From Bacteroidota bacterium (GTDB lineage Bacteria > Bacteroidota > Bacteroidia > AKYH767-A > 2013-40CM-41-45): 60,184 nt of DNA. The notes below the pieces were generated by a model that was not told the DNA's origin, searched no databases, and saw only the letters and a program-made list of their open reading frames with translations. The stretch is from contig PLYJ01000054.1 of the NCBI GenBank assembly GCA_003151745.1, positions 1-60,184 on the forward strand, written 5' to 3'. This document shows, one piece after another, positions 54,107 through 59,818 of the stretch (within the stretch, counting starts at the first letter, position 1; every line of letters begins with the position of its first letter). Both the position numbers and the translations under genes were made by a program.

Positions 54107-57100
54107 TTATTCTTTCACAAACTTTCCTACCAGCGTGCCTCTTTCACCCCCTATAGGCACCCGGACAAAATACACACCGGCAGCAAGATTTTTGACATTT
54201 ATAATTGCTGTGTTACTGCGGCTTACTTTCTCTTCCAGGATTATTTGCCCAAGCACATTATAAATATCTATTATCGTTTCTTTGGTAAGCTTTAAGCCGT
54301 CAATCATCAACTGATCTCCTGCAGGATTGGGATACATATATATCATATTATTTGAAATGTAATCCTGCAGACCGACAGCAAAGCCCGCTGAGCTATTACA
54401 TCCATATTCATTGGTTACCTCGACATGATAGCTTCCTCCCTGATTTGTAACATAAAAAGAATTTGTTGCCCCTGCAATAAGCGTGGTATCCTGGTACCAT
54501 TGATAAGAAGTATAAGAAGGATCAATGCTGCAATAAAGCGTATCGTTCGATTTGGTAACGACAGGCATTGGCGGTGACGGAGAAACATGAATGAAATTAT
54601 TTATTACAATGGTATCGCTGCCGGCTGCATTCGCTGCGACCAGTGTTACCGTATAAAGGCCGGAATTTGGATAACATATCTGCTGCGGATTTTGGTCACT
54701 GCTTGATGAAGGTATGCCTCCCGGAAAACTCCAATCCCATGCAAGAGGAGTACCCGTGCTCTTGTCCGTAAAATTAACGCAACTGTTACTACATAATGAT
54801 GTAGCGCTCGATTGGAAAGCAGCAGCCGGTGGAACAGTGAGAATATTGATACCTACTGAAATCATACAGCCATTTGTATCTGTTACCGCTATATTATAGT
54901 TACCATTATGCAGGGCTACATAAAAAGTATCCGTAGCCCCTGGAACGAGGGCCGTATCTGAATACCATTGATAAGAGGCATATACGGGATTGGTGCTGCA
55001 AAACAGCGTATCGTACGATTGCGTGATAACAGGGGTAGGCGGCGCGGGGTAAATGCCAATGGTAACTGTTGCCGTTGCACTGCCACATACCGTGTTTGTT
55101 GCAGTCACCGTATAAGTAGTCGGTGCATATACCGTTGCCACAGGATTTGCAATCGTAGAATCGCTAAGACCTGTTGTGGGTATCCACTTATAGGTTGTGC
55201 CCCCGGTTGCATGCAACTGAACGGAAGAACCGGAGCAAACGGATGTGTCCGGATATGCGGATGCAAGGGGACTTCCTGTGATATTTTCAACCGTGACGGT
55301 TGCAGTTTGTGTGCCACCTCCATTGCCTCCTGTGCAGAGCGAGGCGACAGCAGATGAATCTATCACAACAACCGTATATACCCCAGGTGCTAAGCCGGTT
55401 GCAGTTTGTGCAGTTTGGAAGGTAGGATTCCATGAATAGGTATAGGGTCCAATTCCCCCGGAAGGGATAGCAGTAGCGGTGCCTGTTCCTAATGAGCAGG
55501 TATCAGGAGTAGAAGAAACAGCTAAATTAAAATTCGGGCCACAGGGACTGCTGCATGACACTCCTTTCAACTGGAAGGATGAAACAAAACCATCGCCGCA
55601 TACATACAATAAATTACCCGGAGCTAATTGTACATCGTAAACAGTACCGGCAGTAGGAATGATGGATTGGACGGTATAAGCGCTATCATATTTCACCACT
55701 GAATTCCGCAAGCCAACATATATATTATTGCATTCATCCACAGCAATTCCTCCCCAGCCACATAGCGTGGTTGATATGACAAGACTATCCAATATTGCCC
55801 CTGTATTTTTATTGAATCTTTTTATACACGAGCCGTCATACATATACAGATAACAACCATTAACAGCTAAGCCGTTATAGCCAGTCATGCCAGTAGGTCC
55901 GTGCGTGGAAGAATCATCTATCGAGTACTTTACACTCCAAGTCTCAATGAACTCAAAATGATCCCGCACTACGTAATCTATCGGAAGGAGCGTGCTTGCA
56001 GGGAATTTTATAAGAAGATTTCCCGCATCTGTCCTACCCGCACCTTGATCAAACCAACTTCTGCATAGCGCTGAATAACCATTACCTGCATTATCAAGAG
56101 CAAGAACCATATTATCCTCCTCCGCATTGGTAAAAGGGATGCTGACACCAATCAAAGTTGTAAGGTTCGTGTCAATGACATTTATCTGTTGAGGCGCTAT
56201 TGAATATGCATATCCTCCTACGGCAATAGATAGTTTTTTAGTGCAGTTATTATAGTTCATCCTCCACATTTCCATAACAGTATCATTGCCTACATAAAAT
56301 GCAGACTGGAAACCATTAGCATCCAACTTAATGATTTCAGATCCACCGTATGTCGTATTGCTCCAGACCTTAGGAGGCTTAAATCCTTCGCTGATATAAC
56401 TACTACCGCTGATGCCGTCCACTGCATTATCGCCAGGCTCATTTCCTCCACCTGTAAAATTATACCAGAAAGGAGTGGTAGTATAGATCCATTGCGTATT
56501 TCCCGACTTATCAAACTTTATTTCCTGCCAGGGGAAAGAGCCGCCATAAGCAAAGACATCTCCCGCAAAATCATAATCTAAAAAGTAAGCACGGTTGACA
56601 TTGGCGGAATTAGAAAACGGAGGGAAGGTGGTCCAGGGGTCAATGACAGCCCCCCTACCCCCCCAAGGGGGGATTTTGAACGATACTGCATTCCCTGATA
56701 ATTCAAAAGAGGATTCAAGGGGAGTTCCATCTGCGAAAGAAGTAAAAGGGGCATGGTCTATCATGTTTCCAAAAGGAGTTTCAATAAGCATGTTTCCTTC
56801 TTCATCCATCTTTAGCATATTTCCTTTTAAAGGTGTAACAGATTGTCCCGCGTAAGAGGCGGCGATGTCCTCACCGGAGTACTTCATCTTTATGACGGAA
56901 GCATCAGCGCCGGGATGAAGGATGACAGAATATTTGATGCCGGTTTTATCCTCAGGAAATGTATATACAATATCAATATTCGGATATATATTTTTGTATG
57001 TTATTTTATGGTAAGCAAGCGCCTTGATGGTTGATCTGTTTGATTTATCATTCCTGTCACCGTATGTATAATAATACGTAACAGGGTCTTCCGCAATTAC

Positions 57101-57574
57101 TTCAGCATCAGGGTTCGCACCCTGCCAATCCATGCTGATAAGATGGGAAATTGTTTTCGAAGCATTTCCCTCATGCTCTTCCTCTTCTTCTGCGAGGGAA
57201 ACATTGAGATCCTTTTTCCCAAGTGTTGCTTTTGCATCTTCCATTTTTTCCTTTTCTTCTTCGCTTAGCTTCTGCGTTTCATCCCGTCGGTATGTTAATC
57301 CATGGCTGGTAAAGTATATGTTCATACCCTCCGTTGTAACGGCATACTTAATCTCCTTCTGAACGTAACCAAGGGGTAGGAGCGGGTTGGCTTTGTCTTT
57401 ATTATCAATAGGGTCGAACTGCCCTTTGTTTTCTATAAAAACATGGTGCTCAAAAGGTGTACCCGACCAATTTGGCTTTTCCGTAATACCCTGTGCTTTG
57501 GTCTGGCTGAAGGCCGGATGAATAGCCAGCAGTATCATAATGATTAGAAGTGAGATTTGAGATAAATTTTTCAT
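54107..57574 (-). CDS. Large secreted T9SS cargo protein with N-terminal DUF7948-like and PKD domains
   Basis: The 1155-aa protein has a signal peptide (ISLLIIMILLAIHPAFSQ). A DUF7948-like domain follows (HHVFIENKGQFDP, IKYAVTTEGMNIYFTSHGL), with the conserved VIDPWTTF near 310. A beta-propeller-like middle comes next, then Ig/PKD modules (one near 955-1030: AWDWSFPGGIPSSSSDQNPQ). The type A T9SS sorting domain ends VYFVRVPIGGERG and LVGKFVKE. It is predicted to be displayed at or released from the cell surface. A GC-rich palindrome (56650-56672) is inserted in frame just before VIDPW. Function unknown; adhesion or polymer binding is a guess. Confidence 0.85.
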   Translation of the reverse strand: MKNLSQISLLIIMILLAIHPAFSQTKAQGITEKPNWSGTPFEHHVFIENKGQFDPIDNKDKANPLLPLGYVQKEIKYAVTTEGMNIYFTSHGLTYRRDETQKLSEEEKEKMEDAKATLGKKDLNVSLAEEEEEHEGNASKTISHLISMDWQGANPDAEVIAEDPVTYYYTYGDRNDKSNRSTIKALAYHKITYKNIYPNIDIVYTFPEDKTGIKYSVILHPGADASVIKMKYSGEDIAASYAGQSVTPLKGNMLKMDEEGNMLIETPFGNMIDHAPFTSFADGTPLESSFELSGNAVSFKIPPWGGRGAVIDPWTTFPPFSNSANVNRAYFLDYDFAGDVFAYGGSFPWQEIKFDKSGNTQWIYTTTPFWYNFTGGGNEPGDNAVDGISGSSYISEGFKPPKVWSNTTYGGSEIIKLDANGFQSAFYVGNDTVMEMWRMNYNNCTKKLSIAVGGYAYSIAPQQINVIDTNLTTLIGVSIPFTNAEEDNMVLALDNAGNGYSALCRSWFDQGAGRTDAGNLLIKFPASTLLPIDYVVRDHFEFIETWSVKYSIDDSSTHGPTGMTGYNGLAVNGCYLYMYDGSCIKRFNKNTGAILDSLVISTTLCGWGGIAVDECNNIYVGLRNSVVKYDSAYTVQSIIPTAGTVYDVQLAPGNLLYVCGDGFVSSFQLKGVSCSSPCGPNFNLAVSSTPDTCSLGTGTATAIPSGGIGPYTYSWNPTFQTAQTATGLAPGVYTVVVIDSSAVASLCTGGNGGGTQTATVTVENITGSPLASAYPDTSVCSGSSVQLHATGGTTYKWIPTTGLSDSTIANPVATVYAPTTYTVTATNTVCGSATATVTIGIYPAPPTPVITQSYDTLFCSTNPVYASYQWYSDTALVPGATDTFYVALHNGNYNIAVTDTNGCMISVGINILTVPPAAAFQSSATSLCSNSCVNFTDKSTGTPLAWDWSFPGGIPSSSSDQNPQQICYPNSGLYTVTLVAANAAGSDTIVINNFIHVSPSPPMPVVTKSNDTLYCSIDPSYTSYQWYQDTTLIAGATNSFYVTNQGGSYHVEVTNEYGCNSSAGFAVGLQDYISNNMIYMYPNPAGDQLMIDGLKLTKETIIDIYNVLGQIILEEKVSRSNTAIINVKNLAAGVYFVRVPIGGERGTLVGKFVKE
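56650..56672. repeat. GC-rich palindrome inside the 1155-aa T9SS gene
   Basis: CCCCCCTACCCCCCCAAGGG and the following GGG form a C-run/G-run hairpin unlike the AT-rich surroundings. It encodes about IPPWGGRGA in the protein at a spot where relatives carry a short YD-type linker before VIDPW. Related palindromes are at 57708 and 57791. Confidence 0.65.
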
Positions 57575-57634
57575 ATTATTTAGTTTTATAACATTTAATT
57601 TTATGTTTCTGTATGGACTTATTCCTTTACAAAC

Positions 57635-59818
57635 TTATCCGACCCATCTCCCGCTTTGATTGGCGACTTGTACGAAGTAGACGCCTGCGGGAAAAGCCTC
57701 ACCGCTGCCCTCTCCAAAGGAGAGGGAGAAAGTGCTTCCAATAAAGTGGCGGGAGAGTATTTCTTGCCCCATCACGTTATATATTGAGACCTCACCCCCT
57801 ACCCCACTCCCAAGGATAGGGGAGAAAAAGATTGTTACCTCATCAGAAGCAGGATTGGGATAGATTGAAAAGGAATTATTGCTTGTCAGATTAGTTATGC
57901 CGACTGATATGTCAGTATTAAAAGCAGGAGATGTGGCGGAACATCCATTATCATCTGTAATCGAAACAGTATACGAACCATTTTGAGACACTATATAGAA
58001 TTGATTCGTAGCGCCTGTGATGACAGAGTTATTAAAATACCATTGATATGTGTAGGAAGCAGAAGAAAGAAGAGTATCACCCTTCAGAGAAATTACGGGC
58101 TGTGCCGCTGCAGGATGGACAGCAATATAAAAGCTTAAGGTAAGTGTGTCACTGCCATAGCTATTGCCAGCAATGAGTGTTACATCATAACTACCTTCGA
58201 CGGGATAACAGATATTTTGTGGATTTTGAAGCGTGCTTGACGCAGGAGTAGCCCATGGAAAACTCCACTGCCATGAAGTTGCATTGTTGCTGAGGTCTGT
58301 AAAGTTAATGCAGGAATTAGCGCAAATATAGGTGTTATCCGATTGGAAAGAGGAGAGAGGAGAAGGAATACAAGCGCCGCATGACGAATCAATTGTAAAA
58401 CTCCACAGGTCATTATAAACTTTATAGTTTAAGTCGCCACCGCCGAATAAATAAAGATGTCCAGTATTGTCTGCCCATCCCACAGAACCTATTGTTGCGT
58501 TAGGGGTATTTGAGGCACTAGGCAGACCTAAAGTTCCCCAACTTCCCGGGGAAGCTTCCGCAGAGTCAGGGCTTATATGTTGGTTGCCATTGTCGCCCCC
58601 TTTCCAAGTCCATTGATTGCCTACAATACAATACATCCAAAGATCGTTAAAGAGGGCACCCGGCTGCCCATAAGTGCCTCCTCCAGTCCCGCCGAACATC
58701 CATAAATTGCCATTCACATCCGTCCATGATACAGCGTGGTAGCTAATGCGGCCATCAGGCATATTCATTGACTTTGCGATACACTTGGTTCCGTAAACAT
58801 TAAAAATTATTTGTTGTGATAAAGTACTGTCACCAGACATCCATGCCCAATTACCACTAACCGGATTGAAACGCCATAAATCATTTATAGAGATTTCATC
58901 AGAACCAAGTGAAACCATTCCTCCAAAAAGCCAGAAATATCCATTTATATCATTCCAACTCCAAAATTCCTGTCGGATTCCCGGATTATTCGTGCTATCC
59001 TCCACGCCTTTCTTTCCATAAACAGGTAACTCATTTGAAACAACATTACCGGTATTTGATCCTTTCATCCATGTCCATGTATTTGTGGCAATATTGTAAC
59101 GCCATAAACTACTGTTATGGCCAGAACCAAAAAGCCAGAAATTACCTGCGTTATCAGCCCAACCATTTCCAGAGTATGTTACGTCCGGATTATTACTGGA
59201 GTCAGGCACACCCTGAATACCATAGGATCCCGCACCGTTATTTATATGGGGACCTTTTATCCACGTCCATTCATTGGTGCTTATGTCATACTTCCACAGA
59301 TCATTATAAGCGTATACAAAAAACTTCAAGAAACCGAACATCCAGAAGTTGCCGCTACTATCAACCCAAGTTATAGCATTATTGGTACTTGGAGGGCGAT
59401 TAGATGGTGATTCCACTCCCTGAATCCCATAATTACCTTGGTCATTCACCGTGTTGGTACCCGTCATCCATGTCCATTCCTGCGTGAGAGGATTATATCT
59501 CCATAAATCATTGTGAATCCCATTATTGTTATCATCACTTCCTCCATAAAGCCAAAAGTTTCCATTTTTATCCGTCCATTTAGACATACCAAACAAAGCA
59601 GGAGGTTTATTCGTAGGGCTGGCCACACCTTGTGTTCCAAAGTTTCCCGGGCTACTCGTTGTGCTGTCTCCATCCATCCAAACCCATTGACCAGGCGTTT
59701 GTGCAAACGAAAGAAAAGAGGCACATATACTAAGCAATAAGCAGCATAATAACTTACGTTTGCTTTGCAATTGTGTAAATCCGGAAGCAGTTCTTAGGGA
59801 GTAAAAATTATTTTCCAT
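57635..59818 (-). CDS. Kelch-repeat secreted protein with PKD domain and (frameshifted) T9SS sorting domain
   Basis: The 727-aa protein has an N-terminal signal region (KLLCCLLLSICASFLSFAQ at 22-40). About six Kelch-type blades follow, each with GNFWLFGG / YNDLWRYN / WTWM-type strands. A PKD domain lies near 500-570 (ATSWQWSFPWATPASST), and a T9SS domain runs from about 650 (SIYPNPASDEVTIFF, VSIYNVMGQE, GVYFVQVANQS). It stops at GRWVG, yet KFVKE followed by a stop is present in the next frame at 57619-57636. Since the neighbouring T9SS gene ends LVGKFVKE, a recent frameshift has probably removed the last residues. Two GC-rich palindromes lie in the sorting domain. Confidence 0.85.
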   Translation of the reverse strand: MENNFYSLRTASGFTQLQSKRKLLCCLLLSICASFLSFAQTPGQWVWMDGDSTTSSPGNFGTQGVASPTNKPPALFGMSKWTDKNGNFWLYGGSDDNNNGIHNDLWRYNPLTQEWTWMTGTNTVNDQGNYGIQGVESPSNRPPSTNNAITWVDSSGNFWMFGFLKFFVYAYNDLWKYDISTNEWTWIKGPHINNGAGSYGIQGVPDSSNNPDVTYSGNGWADNAGNFWLFGSGHNSSLWRYNIATNTWTWMKGSNTGNVVSNELPVYGKKGVEDSTNNPGIRQEFWSWNDINGYFWLFGGMVSLGSDEISINDLWRFNPVSGNWAWMSGDSTLSQQIIFNVYGTKCIAKSMNMPDGRISYHAVSWTDVNGNLWMFGGTGGGTYGQPGALFNDLWMYCIVGNQWTWKGGDNGNQHISPDSAEASPGSWGTLGLPSASNTPNATIGSVGWADNTGHLYLFGGGDLNYKVYNDLWSFTIDSSCGACIPSPLSSFQSDNTYICANSCINFTDLSNNATSWQWSFPWATPASSTLQNPQNICYPVEGSYDVTLIAGNSYGSDTLTLSFYIAVHPAAAQPVISLKGDTLLSSASYTYQWYFNNSVITGATNQFYIVSQNGSYTVSITDDNGCSATSPAFNTDISVGITNLTSNNSFSIYPNPASDEVTIFFSPILGSGVGGEVSIYNVMGQEILSRHFIGSTFSLSFGEGSGEAFPAGVYFVQVANQSGRWVG
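57708..57726. repeat. GC-rich palindrome in the Kelch-gene sorting domain, copy 1
   Basis: CCCTCTCCAAAGGAGAGGG, a perfect 8-bp stem with an AAA loop, encodes FGEGSGEA between GSTFSLS and FPAGVYFV. Sorting domains normally have only a short turn here. Confidence 0.75.
57791..57825. repeat. GC-rich palindrome in the Kelch-gene sorting domain, copy 2
   Basis: CTCACCCCCTACCCCACTCC then CAAGGATAGGGGAG forms an imperfect hairpin. It encodes SPILGSGVGGE between VTIFF and VSIYNVMGQE, where relatives need fewer residues. Confidence 0.6.

Follow-up and report, generated by a model that had tools for sequence, protein, structure and literature searches.

Three GC-rich palindromes found in two neighbouring secreted-protein genes of a Bacteroidota bacterium, here named E1, E2 and E3, probably belong to non-autonomous palindromic repeats that resemble the Rickettsia palindromic elements (RPEs) and have repeatedly taken over loops of T9SS sorting domains. 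Until now, translated palindromes have counted as an oddity seen in Rickettsia and Wolbachia, apart from scattered cases among REPs. In the free-living Bacteroidota described here, gyrase, ligase, repair enzymes and tRNA-charging enzymes contain translated palindromes of a sequence-conserved family, and a single secretion domain receives them dozens of times. The family offers a large natural data set, with numerous pairs of element-bearing and element-free sites and with tractable laboratory hosts, for asking which agent moves such elements and how much a protein can tolerate.

Three palindromes in two secreted-protein genes

The window, that is the whole stretch of 60,184 nucleotides that was analysed, has a GC content of 38%. 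A sequence-only reading had claimed three palindromes in it, and their positions were confirmed, all on the minus strand. The features are the following:

54107-57574, minus strand: DUF7948/PKD secreted protein gene with a Por_Secre_tail (ORF, Pfam), carrying E1
54113-54337: sorting domain of the DUF7948/PKD gene (TIGR04183 match)
56645-56674, minus strand: E1, C6-type palindrome, with the pattern CCCCCCTTGGGGGGGTAGGGGGG at 56650-56672
57619-57650, minus strand: 3' end of the Kelch gene, where one base more than in three paralogues shifts the conserved KFVKE terminus into another frame
57635-59818, minus strand: Kelch/PKD secreted protein gene with a Por_Secre_tail (ORF, Pfam), carrying E2 and E3
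57659-57871: sorting domain of the Kelch gene (sorting-domain match)
57695-57729, minus strand: E2, R1-type palindrome within the T9SS sorting domain (loop B), with its perfect core at 57708-57726
57788-57824, minus strand: E3, diverged and imperfect R1-type palindrome within the sorting domain that carries E2 (loop A)

Read on the gene strand, E1 has the layout CCCCCC-TTG-GGGGGG-TA-GGGGGGCT and encodes the peptide IPPWGGRGA, directly ahead of VIDPW, where the DUF7948 domain ends. E2 is laid out as CCCTCTCC-TTT-GGAGAGGG-CA-GCGGTGAGGC, the perfect core being CCCTCTCC-TTT-GGAGAGGG, and encodes SLSFGEGSGEA, while E3 (CCCCTATCC-TTG-GGAGTGGGG-TA-GGGGGTGAGG) encodes SPILGSGVGGE. Judged by this common layout, namely a C-rich arm, TTT or TTG, a G-rich arm, 2-3 nt and a G-rich tail, the three palindromes are members of one superfamily. 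The E1 pattern gave no match in 100 shuffles of the window. Moreover, a window scan with a covariance model of the family scored E2 at 48.4 bits, E3 at 42.3 and E1 at 20.5, and returned no further strong copy.

Both genes occur as four paralogous cassettes in the genome. E1 is found at the same site in the paralogues C134 and C253 and is missing from C88. In place of the palindrome, this one paralogue has KSQISNLKSQI, a different stretch that is longer and repeat-like; the E1 site therefore shows no clean insertion. E3 is found also in C88 and in two other genes, and is missing from C134 and C253. The frameshift reported for the Kelch gene is present relative to the three paralogous cassettes, whether biological or a sequencing error: the stop at 57635 falls just ahead of an out-of-frame ...SDKFVKE tail, which the paralogues carry in frame as KKFIKE or KKFVKE.

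A repeat family within and between genes

Pattern searches of the genome revealed at least 136 copies of the R1 type, to which E2 and E3 belong, and at least 30 of the C6 type of E1. The genome-wide search proposed in the sequence-only reading thus shows that the repeats recur, with copies sitting both within and between genes. Single units measure 33-37 nt, and inverted pairs or triplets make composites of roughly 60-140 nt. R1 and C6 units alike consist of a hairpin and an unpaired G-rich tail, with two spacer bases that vary freely (TA, CA, TT, CG, AA and others). Inspection by eye revealed no target-site duplication at the family copies.

Exact consensus copies in other genomes are found almost only in Bacteroidota, where they are spread patchily over many genera and named isolates; 42 of 132 lie inside long ORFs. 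None of the 132 lies in a sorting domain, which rules out a phylum-wide targeting of these domains. A literature search with DNA and peptide strings, mostly covering sources outside subscription journals, found no published description of the family.

Could the palindromes be chance GC-rich hairpins, or an artefact of assembly? In favour of an artefact, the assembly is a draft in 279 contigs, 6.8% of it contamination. Against this stand more than 160 copies, the reversed control patterns, which gave no match in the genome, and the many named isolates in which the exact consensus recurs. Chance hairpins are ruled out by the controls and the copy number, and this explanation as a whole can practically be dismissed.

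Insertions in conserved enzymes

The C6 type lies almost exclusively in genes, 29 of the 30 copies listed being in frame within long ORFs. The genes concerned include GyrA, LigA, PriA, ValRS, PrmC, RecQ, Mfd and RNase R (NCBIfam identities). Alignment with homologues, which the earlier reading had called for, revealed clean insertions in conserved enzymes compared with their solved homologues: inserts of about 40 aa in GyrA and about 45 aa in LigA, and gaps in PriA, ValRS, MutS and iPGM. In-frame insertions absent from homologues, the criterion used for RPEs, are thus found in each of these six enzymes. Such insertions in unrelated enzymes would require real movement of the elements.

Replacement of loops in T9SS sorting domains

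T9SS sorting domains, of which the genome has more than 200 paralogues, make up 1% of its length. At least 56 of the 136 R1 copies lie in them, compared with 1.4 expected, and a second scan adds at least 4. Since the first search pattern, a 36-nt variant, placed 1 of its 11 copies in a sorting domain, the enrichment is mainly that of the 35-nt variant with a 2-nt spacer. Almost all sorting-domain copies sit in two loops, in several frames and in both orientations. The family is present in loop B of at least 45 sorting domains of the genome, in five frame/orientation classes.

Sorting domains with and without the element were compared as paralogue pairs within this one genome, in which near-identical sisters of both kinds exist. 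The median loop length is 24 aa with or without the element, which shows that the element substitutes for loop residues and does not lengthen the protein; clean insertion is therefore ruled out in these domains. In the sisters L031 and L097, about 18 nt of native loop are swapped for a 33-nt element. The sequence-only reading had described the palindromes as in-frame insertions that add a stretch: the frame is indeed kept, but at both sorting-domain sites loop sequence was substituted and no stretch was added. It had also held that homologues with the same Gly-rich loops and no palindromic DNA would speak against it; the palindrome-free paralogues have unrelated loops.

The constant loop length argues for a length constraint, and a decorated domain, when modelled, still resembles the solved structures of T9SS sorting domains. 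Both would fit an explanation by selection on the sorting domain's Gly/Pro-rich peptides, in which codon choice produced the palindrome as a side effect. However, five frames of one DNA sequence are in use and give unrelated peptides, which rules out selection for one peptide, and copies also lie between genes and in enzymes, which refutes this explanation as a full account. Furthermore, synonymous positions of the element are conserved: in decorated domains its third codon positions are 81% identical, whereas those of the flanks reach 55-57%, and for synonymous codons the share of identical ones is 86% versus 63%. We consider this explanation highly improbable.

The largest loop class, fwdA (VLS[SY]SLSFGEGRGEA), comprises 24 of 69 domains, which share the residues VLS[SY] beyond the palindrome. 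This points to copying of a decorated loop and not to separate insertions. After one or a few insertions, the decorated sorting domains might then have spread through duplication and gene conversion, the palindromes being passengers of domain shuffling; the four paralogous cassettes, with E1 at an identical site in three of them, fit such a history. Yet one loop contains both orientations and five reading frames, and also hosts other palindrome types, such as SGVYPDNFGREGRGE and one C6-type copy. On a tree built from the flanks the loop class changed at least 31 times, and close sisters differ in class. The far better conservation of the element than of its flanks and the enzyme insertions also stand against this history, which is possible but, in our opinion, doubtful.

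We thus favour repeated takeover of loops by RPE-like repeats. Non-autonomous palindromic units would land in genes and in intergenic DNA. With its 33 nt and its lack of stops in five of six frames, the common R1 unit would leave the reading frame open. An element would persist where the host protein offers a tolerant surface loop, and the numerous sorting domains would supply two such loops, taken over again and again by R1/C6 and other palindromic families, with residues replaced one for one. This would proceed both by fresh insertion plus local deletion and by exchange of loop cassettes between paralogues, presumably through gene conversion. The elements would be selfish or near-neutral DNA that gets translated. 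Points that weigh against this view are the lack of a linked transposase, of target-site duplications and of sorting-domain enrichment in other genomes, together with the flanking residues shared by the largest loop class. A more speculative reading, which we put forward only tentatively, is that the two loops are landing pads in which several unrelated palindromic families are swapped as cassettes between the more than 200 paralogues; if true, mobile palindromes would drive an ongoing loop diversification in the export signals of surface proteins.

Y1 transposases

A REP-associated (Y1) transposase had been suggested as the partner of the palindromes, and the elements could be of REPIN type, with a RAYT- or TIRYT-group Y1 (HUH) transposase mobilising them in trans. 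Seven Y1_Tnp genes are present in the genome, Y1 genes occur in each of the 19 element-bearing genomes tested, and inverted family pairs look like REPINs. Moreover, the R1 tail GGGGTGAG fits the motif GGGGWSAS of the TIRs beside TIRYT genes (PMC3733652). However, the loci themselves revealed no link: no R1 copy lies within about 1.5 kb of 63 Y1 loci, a C6-type pair is found at the edge of just one Y1 locus among 65, and a Y1 gene is close to only 1 of 120 element loci. In addition, the genomes G007 and G008 have Y1 genes and lack the elements, and the Y1 genes of the present genome are flanked by other palindromes. Mobilisation by Y1 therefore seems rather unlikely to us.

Comparison with known systems

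Like the GTAG and CGTC REP superfamilies (PMC3733652), the present family consists of short palindromes that have an unpaired end, stand alone or in inverted pairs, and sometimes lie inside DNA-repair and tRNA-related genes. Among the repair genes with an intragenic REP, the same paper names that of DNA polymerase I. In contrast, most REPs are intergenic, and C6 is nearly all intragenic; the terminal bases of R1 and C6 are GGGGTGAGGC or GGGGGGCT, with a variable spacer where a constant unpaired GTAG would stand beside the stem and no constant CGTC, and the RAYT association of GTAG REPs and REPINs is absent from the 63 Y1 loci. A separate CGTC-type repeat is present in the genome. The TIR families of TIRYT genes share the tail motif, but no Y1 gene is flanked by inverted copies of the present family.

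The closest likeness is with the RPEs (Ogata et al. 2000, reviewed in PMC2229807) and their relatives in Wolbachia; for RPEs, the same review describes expression and activity of a Gmk enzyme that bears one. Both are repeated palindromic DNA within and between genes, translated in frame in conserved proteins. The resemblance claimed in the sequence-only reading is supported, by analogy, by recurrence, frame and clean enzyme insertions, and we judge that the family would function like the Rickettsia elements. The differences concern the sequence, the host phylum, here Bacteroidota, and the size, since an RPE unit spans about 105-146 bp with long terminal inverted repeats, whereas single units here have 33-37 nt and only composite inserts attain 60-140 nt. 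RPE-4 and RPE-6 have CGTC, a tag by which kinship is judged here and which E1-E3 and the R1/C6 consensus lack. Furthermore, a single domain family is struck dozens of times here, its loops being replaced and not lengthened. The model of the T9SS type A sorting domain family (TIGR04183/PF18962) still recognises the decorated domains, which differ from other members in that loops A and B are encoded by palindromic DNA of a mobile type.

Results

Three palindromes in two secreted-protein genes

The sequence-only reading had described three GC-rich palindromes in two neighbouring T9SS genes, and all three are found where it had placed them. The two genes are adjacent, and both products are secreted and carry T9SS sorting domains (genes assigned from ORFs and Pfam domains):

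54107-57574, minus strand: DUF7948/PKD/Por_Secre_tail secreted protein gene
57635-59818, minus strand: Kelch/PKD/Por_Secre_tail secreted protein gene
56645-56674, minus strand: palindrome E1
57695-57729, minus strand: palindrome E2
57788-57824, minus strand: palindrome E3

On the gene strand, E1 reads CCCCCC-TTG-GGGGGG-TA-GGGGGGCT, E2 reads CCCTCTCC-TTT-GGAGAGGG-CA-GCGGTGAGGC and E3 reads CCCCTATCC-TTG-GGAGTGGGG-TA-GGGGGTGAGG. They share a common plan: a C-rich arm, TTT or TTG, a G-rich arm, two to three free bases, and a G-rich tail similar to the second arm. In single-stranded DNA folds, the C arm of E1 and of E3 pairs preferentially with the tail, whereas the two arms of E2 pair with each other; thus two alternative hairpins are possible for the element, with fold energies showing only a modest gain over shuffles. 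Compared with three paralogous cassettes, the Kelch gene has a single additional base within 57619-57650. The conserved sorting-domain end KFVKE is thereby out of frame, so that, relative to these paralogues, there is a frameshift at the end of this gene, as proposed.

The Kelch and DUF7948 two-gene cassette has three more copies in the genome (loci L266, L267 and L268, on contigs C134, C253 and C88), of roughly 80% DNA identity. E3 is present in two of the four paralogues, the other two having NKNFKYG or NKNIKDG at that place. E1 is present in three, C88 carrying KSQISNLKSQI instead, together with an E1-type copy at the E2 site.

The palindrome family and its host genes

The suggested genome search revealed abundant copies. 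For the E2/E3 type (R1), a covariance model gave at least 142 matches, at least 136 of them distinct, in the 4.6 Mb genome; a pattern search allowing up to 3 mismatches gave at least 30 copies of the E1 type (C6), and backwards-read control patterns gave no match. A third, intermediate form, CCCCTCC-TTT-GGAGGGG-NT-GGGGAGGCT, occurs in the GyrA, LigA, ValRS and aminotransferase-like genes. In many C6 inserts two copies are joined as an inverted pair (AGCCCCCC..CCCCCCAAAGGGGGG, spacer, CCCCCCTTTGGGGGG..GGGGGGCT), and the spacers are unrelated.

Of the 30 C6 copies, 29 lie inside ORFs that are 200 aa or longer and extend 25 aa or more beyond the copy on both sides; this matches gene-blind insertion at a coding density of about 87% (our own estimate), and it is noteworthy that coding sequence is not avoided. 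C6 hosts, by NCBIfam names, include PrmC, an MsbA-like ABC transporter, valyl-tRNA ligase, RNase R, RecQ, PriA, LigA, Mfd, GyrA, NAD+ synthase and RecF; R1 hosts include alanyl-tRNA ligase, NuoD (close to the N terminus), a copper P-ATPase, DNA polymerase I, MutS, iPGM and MiaA.

Clean insertion, as expected by the earlier reading, is seen in some of these enzymes when aligned to solved structures. In GyrA, the surplus residues 500-539 fit precisely between positions 641 and 643 of the solved GyrA chain that matches best, residues 491-535 of LigA are added with no residues lost, and PriA, ValRS, MutS and iPGM each have about 10-20 surplus residues. AlaRS shows no net insertion, and in sorting domains the loop is replaced.

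Concentration in T9SS sorting domains

Two combined searches gave 215 sorting-domain matches, representing 1.0% of the genome. Of these, 53 hold 56 of the 136 R1 copies (lower bounds; 1.4 expected), copies that are not independent, so that a binomial P should not be taken literally. At least four further copies came from the sampled remainder. One sorting-domain query held the element peptide and the R1 model was partly trained on sorting-domain copies, but the 40-fold excess is far above what these biases could produce.

About six of these copies lie in loop A, which links the first two strands that follow YPNP, and most others in loop B, which separates the GQ/GE turn from AG-Y-F. R1 DNA in loop B is translated in two forward frames, giving SLSFGEGRGEA and SPLLGRGAGGE, and in three reverse frames, giving SPQPSPKERE, SPPAPLLQRRGE and PALSKGEGE; in some domains this loop holds other palindrome types. 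A structure model of a doubly decorated domain, with palindromes in loops A and B (mean pLDDT 76.6), matches the solved T9SS sorting domains of NucA (8glk), mirolase (8qb1) and RemZ (8gl8); placed by sequence position, the residues of loop A lie between strands 19-23 and 35-41, and those of loop B are found at the end of strand 57-61 and in the loop after it.

The proposal that each palindrome adds a stretch fails in sorting domains: median loop B length is 24 aa both with (43 domains) and without (29 domains) the element, and L031 and L097, sister domains that align well in both flanks, differ in that about 18 nt of native loop is swapped for the 33-nt element.

In decorated domains compared in the same frame, third codon position identity is 81% in the element and 55-57% in the flanks, while same-amino-acid codons are identical in 86% versus 63% of cases; thus the elements have a more recent origin than the domains, have been homogenised or are under constraint as DNA. 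Loop class requires at least 31 changes, with hardly any clustering, on a weakly resolved tree of the flanks (52 columns). From such comparisons, our reading is that these copies may have arisen by recurrent insertion and cassette exchange.

Other palindromes also occur in these domains. Loop A of four (L038, L069, L084, L226) holds CGTC-type REP-like peptides (IASEVKQ, IARSGATRQ); the observation also covers loci L080 and L265, and exact CGTCATTGCGA...AAGCAATC copies are found elsewhere in the genome. The peptide VGWTSNG occurs in a third loop of L062, encoded by palindrome CCGTAGGATGGACATCCAACGG, and in loop A of L106. Loop B of L062, L063, L064 and L069 contains a mosaic, CTATCCCGATAATTTCGGGAGAGAGGGTCGGGGTGAGG, with a different stem and an R1 tail, as if one palindrome had invaded another.

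Spread beyond this genome

R1 was found in 13 of 26 relatives, this genome counted, with 1 to 90 copies in the other 12; in an even draw of 148 phylum genomes, the R1 consensus was present in only 8 and C6 in 2. Exact matches to the 32-nt consensus in named genomes come almost exclusively from Bacteroidota (Mucilaginibacter, Pedobacter, Flavobacterium, Chryseobacterium, Chitinophaga, Bacteroides sp. 51, Marivirga and others). There, 42 of 132 exact copies lie well within long ORFs, several of which are, by eye, leucyl-tRNA ligases, and none of the 132 lies in a sorting domain, so the sorting-domain concentration is particular to this lineage.

In several Mucilaginibacter, R1 occupies the same place in genes that, by eye, encode leucyl-tRNA ligase (L272, L298, L316, L322), often with a second copy close by. 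In another genome, G006, three neighbouring T9SS genes (L111, L122, L130) carry the element directly before YPNP (GLTPALSEGEGVHLYPNP), a site distinct from loops A and B.

Discussion

The suggested link to a Y1 transposase found no support: this genome has seven Y1_Tnp genes, R1 is near none of 63 Y1 loci in this and other genomes, and a Y1 gene lies within 8 kb at only 1 of 120 element loci. On the flanks of Y1 genes of this genome (L012, L013, L014) lies a different REP-like palindrome, GTAGTCCACCTACGGCGGAC, which belongs to these genes and has no relation to E1-E3. No target-site duplication was seen by eye. The R1 tail fits GGGGWSAS, a motif reported in the TIRs of TIRYT transposases (PMC3733652), so a distant HUH-type mover is still conceivable.

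A full-text literature search found no paper containing the family's DNA or peptide strings. Its unit size, tags and transposase link agree with none of RPE, GTAG REP and CGTC REP. By analogy, the family appears to work like RPE, as the earlier reading had suggested: RPE are palindromes translated within conserved genes (PMC2229807), and so are R1 and C6.
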